From positions 1 to 46,588 of the forward strand of contig CAMFOZ010000002.1 of assembly GCA_945971245.1 (NCBI GenBank): a stretch of DNA of 46,588 nt. The letters are read 5' to 3'. This stretch comes from an uncultured Lactobacillus sp. (GTDB lineage Bacteria; Bacillota; Bacilli; Lactobacillales; Lactobacillaceae). Shown here piece by piece: positions 28,497 to 44,625 of the stretch. Each line of letters starts with the position of its first letter. Position 1 is the first letter of the stretch. The translations under genes and the position numbers were made by a program. The notes under the pieces were generated by a model. That model searched no databases. It was not told the DNA's origin and was given only the letters and a program-made list of their open reading frames with translations.

Positions 28497-29918
28497 TTAG
28501 CTAATGGCGATCGTGCCGTTAGCAACAAGCCAGATGGCAACAACGGATAATACAAGAATCAAGGTCATAACCCACTTTTCAGCAGCAGACATCTTGTGGT
28601 TGTTTTCCTTGCATGCCAGGTAGTAAATGTAGAAACCAGGAATGAAACTGATGGAAACCAGCAGAACCTCTTGCCAACCAGCTAAGAACATGCATGCAAG
28701 CATGAAGGCAGCGGAGAGAAGTCCGATGGTGTATTGTCCCCATTCACCGTGTTCCCGACTGTACTTCATTTGGTAAAGACCAACGAAGAGGTAGGAGAAC
28801 AGGATAGCTGCGGCACAAAGGGAGTAAGCAAATTCGTAAGCCTTTTGCGTGAACAGCAGTGAGAACAGGAAGATCGTCTGCAATACACCAGTGATCATCA
28901 GAGAAGCAGTTGGGGCATTCTTGGCGTTGGTGTTACCCCAGAGCTTTGGCATTGCCTTATCTTCGGCAACCAGCATCGTCGTTTCGGCTGGCAGCATGGT
29001 CCATGACAACCAGGAAACAATGGTGGAGATGATCAGACCAACATTAATCAGGATAGAACCCCAGTTACCAACAGTCATTTGAAGGACGTGACCAATAGCA
29101 GGTTGACCCATTCCGGCTAATTGAGCACGAGTCAGAACACCGTAAGGCAGAACAGAAATCAGAACGTAAGCTAATACCAAGAGGCCGTAACTAATCAGGG
29201 TAGCTTGTTGAGCATCAGACCGGGACTTAGCACGGTGGCCCATAACAGAGGCACCTTCAACCCCGATAAATACCCAGATCAGCGTCATCAGAGTACCCTT
29301 CATCTGGCTCCAAACAGAACCAGTGGTCGTACCCTTAGATGCGTTGTTGGCAACGCGACCCCAGAAGTCGGCAGTGAACATGCCGCCCTTGAAGCTGACG
29401 ATCATGATGATGATGAAGATAATCAGTGGCAGAACCTTGCAGATCGTCCCAATCATGTTAACGAATGAAGCTGTTTCAACACCATTGTTAACCAGAATAG
29501 TCAATAACCAGCAGAAAATAATAGCTACAATGATTGACGGAACGTTCTGACCACCTTTGAAGACTGGGAAGAAAGTCCCCAGTGAAGCCATCAGCATCGT
29601 GGCAAAGGCAATGTTACCCAACCATGCTGATAACCAGTAGGACCAACCAGAGATGAACTCACCCATTGGTCCGAAGCCAGCGCCGGCATAAGAGAAAATC
29701 CCGGCTTCAAGATCTGGCCGCTTTTCAGACAAGTTGTTCAGTGAAAGAACTAACATCAAGAAACCTAAACCTGCAAAGATCCAGGCTAGAATGGCTGGAC
29801 CTGGTGCAGCGGCAGCTGAGACATCACTAGTAATACCAAATATCCCAGTACCAATACATGAACTAACAATTAGGGCTATTAATTCGCCCTTACCGATACC
29901 TTTTTTCTCAGTATCCAT
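28497..29918 (-). CDS. arcD: Arginine/ornithine antiporter-like APC family permease
   Basis: APC N-terminus 'IGKGELIALIVSSCIGTGIFGI'; next to argR and arcA. Confidence 0.75.
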   Translation of the reverse strand: MDTEKKGIGKGELIALIVSSCIGTGIFGITSDVSAAAAPGPAILAWIFAGLGFLMLVLSLNNLSEKRPDLEAGIFSYAGAGFGPMGEFISGWSYWLSAWLGNIAFATMLMASLGTFFPVFKGGQNVPSIIVAIIFCWLLTILVNNGVETASFVNMIGTICKVLPLIIFIIIMIVSFKGGMFTADFWGRVANNASKGTTTGSVWSQMKGTLMTLIWVFIGVEGASVMGHRAKSRSDAQQATLISYGLLVLAYVLISVLPYGVLTRAQLAGMGQPAIGHVLQMTVGNWGSILINVGLIISTIVSWLSWTMLPAETTMLVAEDKAMPKLWGNTNAKNAPTASLMITGVLQTIFLFSLLFTQKAYEFAYSLCAAAILFSYLFVGLYQMKYSREHGEWGQYTIGLLSAAFMLACMFLAGWQEVLLVSISFIPGFYIYYLACKENNHKMSAAEKWVMTLILVLSVVAIWLVANGTIAIS

Positions 29919-29934
29919 TTATATCCCCTCGTTT

Positions 29935-30405
29935 CTACACAATGCGTGTGTTAATGTGCTTCGTAATCAGATTATAGACCAGCTTGGCATCCGCATTATC
30001 CTTGCTAATAATAATCAGGGTGTCATTTCCCGCGATTGTTCCGACAACTTCTGGAATATCAAGCTCATCGAACATTCCCGCCAATATTGTCGCGTAGCTC
30101 GAGTTCAGTGCCGTCTTAACAACATTTAAGAACTGCACCGTCTCGATCGTCCGAACGTTATCATGAATTCCCTGATAAAGCCGGTTAAAATCGTGTTCAG
30201 GCGCCAAGTGCAACTGAACATAGTAAGTATGGCCCTTACCATCGTTGGCTTTGACAATATTAAGCGCATGAATGTCACGAGAAATGGTCGCCTGGGTTGT
30301 CTCAACTCCGGCCTCTGTAAGGAGTTGTAACAACTCATCCTGGGTCTCAATCTTACGATCATTAACTAGTTGCTCAATAAATTTCCGTCTCGCTTTTCGA
30401 TCCAT
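29935..30405 (-). CDS. argR: ArgR-family arginine regulator
   Basis: 'ETQDELLQLLTEAGVETTQATISRDIHAL' and 'EVVGTIAGNDTLIIISKD'. Confidence 0.93.
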   Translation of the reverse strand: MDRKARRKFIEQLVNDRKIETQDELLQLLTEAGVETTQATISRDIHALNIVKANDGKGHTYYVQLHLAPEHDFNRLYQGIHDNVRTIETVQFLNVVKTALNSSYATILAGMFDELDIPEVVGTIAGNDTLIIISKDNADAKLVYNLITKHINTRIV

Positions 30406-30446
30406 TCGCGGTCCCTCTCAATAAAGTGGTTACACCTAAATAATAC

Positions 30447-30518
30447 TAGAAAAAGCAGCAAAATTATACCCTTCCTCCGTGATTGTCTAAGAGTTAAGCG
30501 GATAATATTTGCTGCTTT
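30447..30518 (-). terminator. Long-loop terminator after arcA
   Basis: AAAGCAGCAAA...TTTGCTGCTTT stem, then T-tract on the minus strand; loop of about 45 nt. Confidence 0.55.
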
Positions 30519-30531
30519 CATTTAGTTAAAA

Positions 30532-31770
30532 TTACTTCTTAAGATCTTCACGAACAAGTGGGCAGGACATGCACCGTGGACCACCACGACCACGGGATAA
30601 TTCACTTGACCGAACCTCATGAACGAGAATTCCGTGCTTACGCAGCAAATCATTTGATACATAGTTCCGGTCATAAGTTACAACTTCACCTGGAGCAATT
30701 GTCAAGGTGTTGGAACCATCATTCCATTGTTCACGTGGAGCAACAATTGGGTCACCATTACCAGTTGGGATAAGGTCGATTTCAGGTTCGTCCAGAGCTT
30801 CTTCCAGAACGTGCTGTAAGTCAGTCCGGTGCTTGATTTCGATCTCGCCGTCCTTACCTGGGTGAAGGATGTAAGTGTCAACCTTACCGTTTTCATCCAA
30901 GATTTGTGGGTGAACAGTGAACTGGTTGTAGTTGATCATTGTGAAGACGGTGTCAAGGTGCATCATAGCGTGGTTATGTGGAATGTGAATAGCAATAACC
31001 GTGTCGTAGTTGGAGTCCTTGAAGAGGTTCCGTGCGATGTCCATGATGGCATCTGCTGACGTCCGTTGTGAAATACCGATGGCGAATACGTGGTCGCTAA
31101 GTACCAATTCGTCCCCACCTTCGATACGGGTGTCGTGGTAACGATCACGCCATACATGTACACCCTTGTTTGCGAAACGTGGGTTGTACTTGATGATGTA
31201 TTCAGTGAAGAGAGATTCACGTTGACGAGCCTTGAAGGTCATGTGGTTGATGGTAATACCGTCACCAATGGAAGCTTGTGGGTCACGAGTGAAGTAGGCG
31301 TTTGGCATTGGATCCATGAAGAATGGGTAGTCCTTGTCTTCAGCCATTTCAGCAAGTGAAACAAACTTAACATCGATCTCGTCCTTACGAACACCGGCGA
31401 TGATCTTGTCAACCATTGCTTGGGTATCCATGCTAAGCAAGTATTCCTTCAATGCGTCGTGGACAGCACCAGCTGCGTAGCCAGATTCGGCCAGCATTTG
31501 TTCAAGGAACTTGTCCTTAACTTGACTGTCTTGCAGAGCTTCTGCGGCTAACTTGGCGAAGTATAATACCTCAATTCCTTGTTTACGCAGTGTGTCGGCA
31601 AAGTAATCGTGTTCTTCCTGTGCAATTGGCAGGTATGGAATGTCATCGACAAGCATCCGGTGAAGGATGTCAGGGTAAACGTTTTCGATTTCGTGCCCTG
31701 GTCGGTGAAGCATAACTGTCTTCAGCTTTCCAATTTCAGATGTTACATGAATTGGGCTTTGCATATACAA
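30532..31770 (-). CDS. arcA: Arginine deiminase
   Basis: '[18 protein letters not shown]', '[21 protein letters not shown]', '[16 protein letters not shown]'. Confidence 0.97.
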
Positions 31771-41537: not shown

Positions 41538-42470
41538 TTAGTTGTCACGGATAACCGTACCAACCTTACCAGCCAGAGCATCGTCAAGGCCGTTGAGTGA
41601 AGTAATGATTGCTTCACGCTCAGGGTGACCTTCAACGAATGACAGGCAGGCTTCGATCTTAGGCAGCATGCTTCCGGCAGCAAACTGCTTTTCGTCCATG
41701 TACTTGTGGGCTTCATCGATCGTCAGAGTCTTCAGAGCCTTTTCATCTGGCTTACCGTAGTTTACGTAAACGTAATCTACCGCCGTCAGGATGATCAGCT
41801 TATCGGCACTGATTTGATCAGCCAAAAGGGCACTTGAACGGTCCTTGTCGATAACGGCAGGAACGCCTTGGAGGCCGTCGTCAGTCATGATGACTGGGAC
41901 ACCACCGCCACCACCAGCGATAACTAGGTCACCGGATTCAATCAGCGTGTTGATACTGTTGAGTTCCATGATCTTCTTCGGCAGTGGTGAAGGAACAACT
42001 TGACGGTAACCCCGTCCAGCGTCTTCCTTAAAGGTGTAACCCTTTTCCTTCTCGATCTGCTCAGCTTGTTCCTTCGTGTAGAAGTCACCAACTGGCTTGG
42101 ATGGATTATCGAATGCTGGGTCTTGTGGATCAACAGCGATTTGCGTAACAATCGTTGCCACATTCTTGTTCATCCAACGCTTGTGCAGTTCGTTTTGCAG
42201 ACTTTGTTGTAAGTGGTAACCAATGTAACCTTGGCTCATGGCACCACATTCTGGGAATGGGAAGGCAGCGGTCTTACCATTTTCAGCAGCAAAGTTCATA
42301 CCCAGGTTAATTGCACCAACCTGTGGACCGTTACCGTGACTGATAACAACTTGGTTACCAGCATCGATCAGACCGATCAGTGAGGAAGCAGTGTTCTTAA
42401 CCAGCTTTAATTGCTCTTCAGGTGACTTACCAAGGGCGTTACCACCTAAGGCAACAACTACTTTAGCCAT
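41538..42470 (-). CDS. arcC: Carbamate kinase
   Basis: '[16 protein letters not shown]', '[16 protein letters not shown]', 'AGGGGGVPV'. Confidence 0.97.
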
Positions 42471-42488: not shown

Positions 42489-43496
42489 TTAGCCTTGTTC
42501 ACCTAAGGTTGCAACCATAACAGCCTTGATGGTGTGCATCCGGTTTTCAGCTTCACGGAAGACAACGGAGTGCTTGCTTTCGAAGACTTCGTCAGTAACT
42601 TCCATTTCCTTAAGACCAAACTTCTTGTAGATTTCCTTACCAACTTCAGTATCAAGGTTGTGGAATGCAGGCAGGCAGTGTTCGAAGAGAACGTTAGGGT
42701 TCTCAGTAGCCTTCATAACATCCATCGTTACTTGGTAAGGCTTAAGCAGGTTGATCCGCTTTTCCCACATGTCGTCGGATTCACCCATTGATACCCAAAC
42801 ATCGGCGTAGATAACATCCATGCCCTTAACGCCTTCCTTAACATCGTTAGAAACAACGATCTTGGCGCCAGTTTCCTTGGCAATTGCGTTAGCCTTGTCA
42901 AGAACTTCCTTAGTTGGGTTCAATTCCTTAGGAGTTACAACGTGGTATTCCATCCCCATAACGGCAGCACCGAGCATCAGGGCGTTAGAAACGTTGTCTT
43001 GACCATCACCAACGAAGGCAAACTTGATGTCTTCGTAAGGCTTCTTCAATACTTCGTGAGCAGTTAAGAAGTCAGCCAGAACTTGAGTTGGGTGGTCTTC
43101 GTCAGTCAGACCGTTCCAAACTGGAACACCTGAGTACTTAGCAAGGGTTTCAACGTTACGTTGTGAGAAACCACGGTATTCGATACCATCGAACATACCA
43201 CCAAGAACACGAGCAGTATCCTTAACAGATTCCTTGTGACCAATGTGTGAGCCTGAAGGACCTAAGTAGGTTACGTGAGCACCTTCGTCCTTAGCACCAA
43301 CTTCGAATGAGCAACGAGTACGAGTTGAGCTCTTTTCGAAGATCAAAGCGATGTTCTTACCTTCAAGGTTCTTAGCTTCAGTACCAGCGTACTTAGCCTT
43401 CTTCAGATCTTCGGCTAAGTTAAGCATGTATTCCATTTCACGCTTGTTGAAGTCTGAAAGAGTTAAGAAACTACGATTACGTAAATTAAAAGCCAT
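42489..43496 (-). CDS. arcB: Ornithine carbamoyltransferase (catabolic)
   Basis: '[14 protein letters not shown]', '[17 protein letters not shown]', '[10 protein letters not shown]'. Start set by AGGAGG at about 43503-43508. Confidence 0.96.
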
Positions 43497-43623
43497 AATT
43501 AATTCCTCCTTGGTTATTACAGTTACTATCATACCGGTATACTTCAAGAAGCTTCGCATAACATCGCAAAAATGCAAAAGAAAATTTTCTTTTTTTGGCT
43601 CCTCGAGGCCCATTATAACATCA

Positions 43624-43686
43624 ATGAAAGCGGACCCACACTTTTTATAAAACAAATCCCCTCTTTAAGGGAAAAATCGCTTTCAA
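43624..43686. promoter_or_regulatory. Inverted TGAAAGCG/CGCTTTCA half-sites, cre-like, upstream of arcB
   Basis: TGAAAGCG at 43624-43631 and CGCTTTCA at 43679-43686 resemble CcpA cre half-sites. Confidence 0.35.
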
Positions 43687-43785
43687 TAAATTATATCATT
43701 GTGCAAAGACGCACAGGGGTATAGAATATTGCTGAGTTTCAAAGAACTTCATCTTTCTTCATTAAATACAAGGGAGTCCTGACCC

Positions 43786-44625
43786 GTGAACTTTTATATT
43801 GTTAACGATAACGACAATTCCACAGAACTACTAAAAGATATTATTGAAAACGACTTCAACAATTCAATCGTTGGTACCACCAACAGCTCTCAGCAAGCCT
43901 ATGATGATGCCATGCGGCTCAGTATTGATATCATGTTTGTTAACCTTGCCATGCCGCGCATCGATGGCATCGAACTGGTCCGTCGTATCCAGGACAGTCG
44001 TCACTACCCGCACTTCATCATGATGGCTCCGGCAATTGACCCCGCCACGCGAACCCGGGCCTACAAGAATGGAATTGACTTCTTTTTGGAAAAGCCATTA
44101 AACATCGCTGAAGTCAAAACGGTCATTAAGCTGGCTAGCCAGAACATCGATATGTCCAAGCGCCTGTTGCAGATTCTGGATCTGGTTAGCGGGGCAGCCA
44201 CCAACAGCAACACGGTTTCGATTAGTTATAAGGAGAAACAAAAGGAAAACGCCAAGTCCATCCTCCGCTTTCTCGGTATCACTGCCGGTAACGGGGGCCA
44301 GGAGATCATCAGTATCGTCAACATGATGATTGAGCGGGAACTCGACTTTGAAGAAATCAACTTTGAGGAAAGCTATCATTGCGATAAGCATGGTAAGAAG
44401 ATCATCTTCCAGCGGGTCCGGCGTGATATCCGGGCGGGACTAACTAACCTCGCCCACATGTGCATCGACTATCCGGAAAATGACATCATTCTGGAATACG
44501 CCAATAACTTGTATGAATATAAAAACGTCCATAACGAGATCGCTTACCTCCAGGGTCAACGTCAAACGGGTGGCCAAGTATCAATCAAGCACTTCTTCAA
44601 TGGATTGATCCAGGAAAGTAATTAA
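43786..44625 (+). CDS. Orphan response regulator, YcbB/GlnL-like, atypical receiver
   Basis: CheY-like receiver followed by YcbB-type C-terminal domain; phosphoacceptor Asp replaced by Asn53. Confidence 0.8.
   Translation: MNFYIVNDNDNSTELLKDIIENDFNNSIVGTTNSSQQAYDDAMRLSIDIMFVNLAMPRIDGIELVRRIQDSRHYPHFIMMAPAIDPATRTRAYKNGIDFFLEKPLNIAEVKTVIKLASQNIDMSKRLLQILDLVSGAATNSNTVSISYKEKQKENAKSILRFLGITAGNGGQEIISIVNMMIERELDFEEINFEESYHCDKHGKKIIFQRVRRDIRAGLTNLAHMCIDYPENDIILEYANNLYEYKNVHNEIAYLQGQRQTGGQVSIKHFFNGLIQESN

Follow-up and report, generated by a model that had tools for sequence, protein, structure and literature searches.

A YcbB-type regulator with a degenerate receiver and no adjacent kinase, divergent from arcB-arcC in an uncultured Lactobacillus: a predicted phosphorylation-independent descendant of a two-component system

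The DNA analyzed here, referred to as the window, is a stretch of 46,588 nt (contig CAMFOZ010000002.1 of assembly GCA_945971245.1) from an uncultured Lactobacillus sp., in which the gene of a response regulator-like protein lies divergent from arcB-arcC (Table 1). The neighbors of the regulator are arcB-arcC and not glutamine genes, and no cognate kinase of the YcbA/GlnK type was found in its operon at this locus, confirming the absence of an adjacent histidine kinase noted in a preliminary description of the sequence. The intergenic region also contains a small hairpin followed by a T-rich stretch (43657-43673, minus strand), which is partly conserved in the nearest relatives and terminator-like by consensus, and a cre-like sequence, TGAAAGCGGACCCA (43625..43638, plus strand; TGTAAGCGGAAACA in the L. 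reuteri group), which, by its consensus, is a possible CcpA site.

Table 1. Coordinates of the regulator gene, its predicted targets and the associated sequence elements in the window
Feature	Position	Strand	Remarks
arcC, carbamate kinase, predicted target	41538..42470	-	NCBIfam TIGR00746; downstream of arcB
arcB, ornithine carbamoyltransferase (OTC), predicted target	42489..43496	-	NCBIfam PRK04284
TATGAT, candidate -10 of arcB	43528..43533	-	By eye; just downstream of array; conserved in alignment
Predicted operator at arcB promoter	43543..43566	+	Degenerate TTCA-TTCG-ATCG, 9/12
TATAGAAT, candidate -10 of regulator gene	43720..43727	+	By eye; just upstream of the 43738-43761 array
Predicted operator, putative autoregulation site	43738..43761	+	Perfect TTCA-N6-TTCA-N6-TTCA; between the regulator's -10-like box and start
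Kinase-less pseudo-receiver and YcbB-domain regulator	43786..44625	+	ORF, GTG start, 279 aa
Receiver domain PF00072, degenerate	43795..44127	+	DD1=N7, DD2=D8, D=N53, T=A81, K=K103
Codons of Asn7-Asp8, DD metal-binding pair	43804..43809	+	First acid lost
AAC, Asn53, phosphoacceptor position	43942..43944	+	Within FVNLAMPRIDG
GCT, Ala81, Thr/Ser switch position	44026..44028	+	
AAG, Lys103 (in EKPL), kept	44092..44094	+	Next residue, Pro104, does not vary in any row
YcbB output domain PF08664, all-helical	44251..44607	+	Q209-R210-x-R212-R213 same in kinase-paired and kinase-less rows

Both parts of a YcbB/GlnL-type architecture exceed the curated Pfam cut-offs in the window protein, the receiver domain scoring 63.0 bits against a cut-off of 30.2 (residues 4-114) and the YcbB domain 102.7 bits against 27.4 (residues 156-274). 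In AlphaFold models the N-terminal part adopts the (beta-alpha)5 receiver fold, with pLDDT mostly 83-92 over residues 1-120 and matches to many receiver structures, and the output domain is confidently all-helical (pLDDT 93), the pTM of the two-domain model being only 0.48. For the output domain, Foldseek returned no PDB match at E<=0.001 and the profile search none below 0.05; the DNA-binding fold of the YcbB domain thus appears unsolved, and its mode of binding DNA is one that we infer. EutV/ANTAR, the top full-length structural match, was set aside as probably receiver-driven, since EutV is absent from the best 50 output-domain matches. Parsimony on the tree described below assigns zero changes to Q209, R210, R212 and R213 in both kinase-less and kinase-paired groups, which fits a conserved DNA target that these residues may putatively contact.

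The residues first read from the sequence, Asn53 at the phosphoacceptor position, the VNDND pocket (Asn7-Asp8-Asn9-Asp10) and the lysine of EKPL, were all recovered in the alignment, but the accompanying account of the degeneracy, sound for Asn53 and the acidic pocket, had missed the loss at Ala81. Instead of an intact DD-D-T/S-K set, the window protein has lost three of the five catalytic positions (DD1, D and T/S), keeping Asp8 and Lys103. It is recognized as a receiver and lacks at least one of the five catalytic residues, which places it within the definition of a pseudo-receiver (PMC12632262); it is also an aspartate-less receiver, which the proteins of L. pontis, L. kribbianus and L. reuteri are not. 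Asn53 is neither a sequencing error nor a strain variant, since Asn is found at this codon in three genomes across a dS of about 1: the protein of genome G043 is identical to that of the window and that of G048 98% identical, both with Asn53 (receivers of the window and G048: dS about 1.2, dN 0.018). The preliminary description treated Asn53 as the key feature and, by its own standard, close orthologs with Asp at this position count against that view; the nearest named ortholog, from L. pontis (94% identical), has Asp53, as do those of L. kribbianus and G044 (86-88%). Since these Asp53 relatives have also lost DD-pair residues and carry Ala at the T position, Asn53 is, as judged from the alignment, a single step within a wider decay of the active site.

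The ancestry of the regulator was surveyed by a scan of named genomes combined with an analysis of flanking genes. A YcbA-type kinase gene precedes the orthologous regulator in Levilactobacillus, Secundilactobacillus, Paucilactobacillus, Bombilactobacillus and Periweissella, where both genes run divergently from arcB, usually in the arrangement arcB-arcC-yfcC. Limosilactobacillus, Pediococcus, L. jensenii and L. psittaci have no kinase gene at this place, and there it is the regulator that lies next to arcB and divergent from it, often at an arcB-arcC-arcA-arcD locus. The position divergent from arcB is kept wherever the locus shows, the exceptions in the kinase-less group being loci at contig ends and one extra copy in L. 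frumenti. This second, fast-evolving copy (L100) is a kinase-less YcbB regulator lying beside YfcC-HK-RR, with Asn53 and with Lys replaced by Glu. At another locus (L066; G014:C1:402000-421500) the arcB neighborhood is duplicated, and one regulator copy carries an internal stop, its open frame being without the N-terminal part.

The DD-D-S-K residues are intact in 22 of 22 kinase-paired regulators and in 10 Limosilactobacillus paralogs that have their own kinase and lie next to a YfcC-like antiporter gene, and in nearly all kinase-less orthologs degeneracy extends across the entire active site. Among additional loci, the site is intact in six with a paired kinase (L148-L153) and degenerate in seven (L141-L147) for which the short stretch examined showed no kinase. 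In a tree built with the active-site columns left out, the kinase-less sequences form one clade with 100/100 support; by parsimony, the five catalytic columns underwent 41 changes in kinase-less and 0 in kinase-paired sequences (tree lengths, 7.8 against 3.1 + 1.9), compared with means of 5.8 and 3.4 changes, respectively, in the other receiver columns. Taking losses as irreversible, the tree requires at least three separate losses of Asp53 within the kinase-less clade. Because this clade has a single origin, only one event speaks for kinase loss as the first step, and the clade may instead have begun with a duplication that left the kinase out. Nor are all kinase-less regulators phosphorylation-dead: Asp53 is kept in the sister species of the window lineage, and in the L. 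mucosae group, also kinase-less, all five residues are intact.

Selection on the receiver has remained strong: where dS is unsaturated, dN/dS is 0.01-0.03, a level just as low as that of the output domain, which rules out a pseudogene. When relative rates were compared by structural element, the DD, D and T loops were fast in kinase-less and slow in paired sequences, and the alpha1-beta2 loop (residues 22-26) was invariant in 18 kinase-less sequences and among the fastest elements in paired ones. This shift of constraint is a lead only, given the large number of elements compared and the small size of the subtree in branch length; the alpha1-beta2-alpha2 surface has also been singled out in a review (PMC12632262).

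In the aligned arcB-regulator intergenic regions, TTCA units recur with a 10-bp period. With up to 2 mismatches allowed in TTCA-N6-TTCA-N6-TTCA, we counted 40 arrays in 16 non-redundant kinase-less intergenic regions (mean of 200 dinucleotide shuffles, 1.85; maximum, 8), where periods other than 10 gave 0-9 matches, and 14 arrays in 12 kinase-paired ones (shuffle mean, 0.42; maximum, 3), so that chance AT-rich repeats are ruled out by both the shuffles and the period scan. An array is present in 28/29 kinase-less and 21/22 kinase-paired intergenic regions, the 22nd holding one once the stretch is extended. In nearly all paired species it begins 43-45 bp from the arcB start, and in most kinase-less species with an arcB-side array the distance is 46-51 bp; a conserved -10-like box adjoins it. 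In the group of Pediococcus, L. ingluviei, L. gorillae and L. jensenii, it is mainly the regulator-side array that is recognizable. Perfect matches number only two in the whole genome of the window. At arcB the window's array is degenerate, yet its position matches that of the 10-12/12 arrays of relatives. The candidate -10 boxes are placed by alignment only, because a consensus promoter scan gave no more matches than shuffles and did not call the arcB TATGAT. In paired species the first unit overlaps a cre-like sequence, units 2 and 3 being clear of it, so CcpA could account for part of the motif. Conserved divergent placement together with a conserved, predicted repeat operator supports the earlier suggestion that arcB-arcC is the natural target.

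A cluster of arcA, an ArgR-family gene and a gene for an arcD-like amino acid antiporter lies about 10 kb from arcB-arcC (28497-31770, minus strand). Membership of arcA-argR-arcD in the same predicted regulon was rejected, since ten arcA promoters showed no TTCA array beyond scattered 10/12 matches. With its own ArgR-like gene and without the array, the arcA cluster appears, from sequence, to be regulated separately from arcB-arcC, the two halves of the arginine deiminase (ADI) pathway forming two operons.

We consider it likely, with a probability of roughly 0.7, that the protein is a two-component regulator turned phosphorylation-independent, which is predicted to act on arcB-arcC and on itself; the domain matches and the degenerate active site support the pseudo-receiver on a YcbB/GlnL-type output domain proposed earlier. 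With ancestry, active-site decay, strong purifying selection and operator conservation established computationally, the regulator probably works in a different way from phosphate control, because the sensor and most of the phosphate site have been lost and yet the target, the DNA sites and the selection have been kept. The probable course of events is as follows: (i) the ancestor was the response regulator of an arcB-linked system of a YcbA-type kinase and a YcbB-type regulator; (ii) the regulator was left without its kinase before the kinase-less clade radiated; (iii) the phosphorylation chemistry, then unselected, decayed repeatedly, leaving the window species without DD1, D and T; and (iv) the protein retained its (beta-alpha)5 fold and output domain, and the gene its divergent position next to arcB and the TTCA-N6 direct-repeat operator. 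The unphosphorylated protein would bind the TTCA arrays of 10-bp period, most likely activating arcB-arcC, as the location of the arcB array in the -35 region suggests, and would repress its own gene, as suggested by the array just after its -10-like box. Its activity would be set by its amount, a partner or a ligand, and not by aspartyl phosphate. A more specific version is tentative and on balance doubtful, namely, that the regulator was converted in place to a one-component system, the constraint having moved to an alpha1-beta2-alpha2 face that binds an arginine-pathway metabolite or protein and so sets arcB-arcC through the old operator.

Several other lines of reasoning lead to different outcomes. 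A search for a cognate kinase elsewhere in the genome did find one of the YcbA type, on contig C6 (G000, L078:1-4004), where a YfcC-like antiporter gene is divergent from the kinase and a YcbB regulator with an intact active site, but this kinase is paired with its own canonical regulator. It could still control the window regulator by non-phosphorylating contact, or the regulator and its canonical paralog could form mixed dimers or compete for sites; the promoter of the paralog carries a closely similar period-10 array, TTCAAAAATAATCAGATATCATCA, so that sites may be shared. Such cross-talk is unlikely given that the kinase occurs in only 11 of 54 genomes of the genus, that the regulator persists in the L. 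reuteri, L. mucosae and L. ingluviei groups although they lack this kinase, the L. reuteri group having no kinase of the YcbA type at all, and that the loops of the receiver active site are the fastest-evolving part. In genome G051 the canonical paralog regulator matches in two pieces about 1 kb apart and looks interrupted (L081; G051:C111:332700-334549), and the kinase-less regulator is intact, on a contig matching L. vaginalis DSM 5837.

Carbamoyl phosphate is able to phosphorylate receivers and, as it is made by ArcB and used by ArcC, a regulator phosphorylated by it would sense ADI flux. Direct phosphorylation by a small donor of this kind in the species that keep Asp53, with even that lost in the window lineage, would account for the intact DD-D-S-K of the L. 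mucosae group without an adjacent kinase and for the retention of Asp53 in the L. reuteri and L. pontis groups. We nevertheless regard it as very improbable, since L. reuteri and L. pontis lack DD2 and Ser/Thr, residues that help to bind the metal and to contact the phosphoryl group, and Asn53 excludes direct phosphorylation of the window protein. The repeated loss of all five catalytic residues could also mean that the receiver is a decaying relic, the output domain alone mattering and the regulator being constitutive and signal-free; the low dN/dS of the receiver and the shift of constraint to the alpha1-beta2 loop make this highly unlikely. Phosphorylation-independent control of arcB-arcC by a regulator whose receiver is still under selection is the reading that we prefer.

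The ADI pathway helps such bacteria survive acid. Pseudo-receivers and orphan atypical response regulators are already known, and how bacterial pseudo-receivers switch on and off is an open question (PMC12632262). One family at one promoter here comprises intact kinase-paired members, the intact kinase-less L. mucosae group, the half-decayed L. reuteri and L. pontis groups and the groups of L. ingluviei, Pediococcus and L. jensenii, in which decay is complete, with the predicted operator in common, and this graded series makes the step from phosphate to other control directly testable in lactobacilli that are harmless and cultivable.

The window regulator resembles GlnK-GlnL of Bacillus subtilis and other YcbB-type regulators in its PF00072 and PF08664 architecture and in a direct-repeat operator of 10-bp period, the GlnL box being TTTTGT-N4-TTTTGT, but it has no kinase in its operon, a degenerate site and TTCA as the operator unit, and it lies beside arcB-arcC instead of genes for glutaminase or glutamine transport. 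With the arcB-linked YcbAB-type systems of the five genera it shares the orthologous family, the divergent arcB and a TTCA array at about 44 bp from the start of arcB, and it differs from them in that they have the kinase and all five residues; our literature search, with subscription journals mostly outside it, gave no publication describing a system of the YcbAB type at arcB. ArgR-type control, described for Lactococcus (PMC6586332), concerns the same pathway, and the window has an ArgR-like gene between arcA and arcD, but ArgR binds DNA as a one-component regulator and has no receiver. Comparable in predicted mode of action are the atypical response regulators ChxR, HP1043, GlnR and RitR, which likewise miss one or more catalytic residues, are orphans, as are 18 of the 20 described in a review that makes no mention of YcbB, GlnL or lactobacilli (PMC12632262), and bind DNA without phosphate, as is predicted here; the window regulator is set apart from them by its YcbB output domain and by having, at the same promoter, a kinase-paired relative that can be traced.
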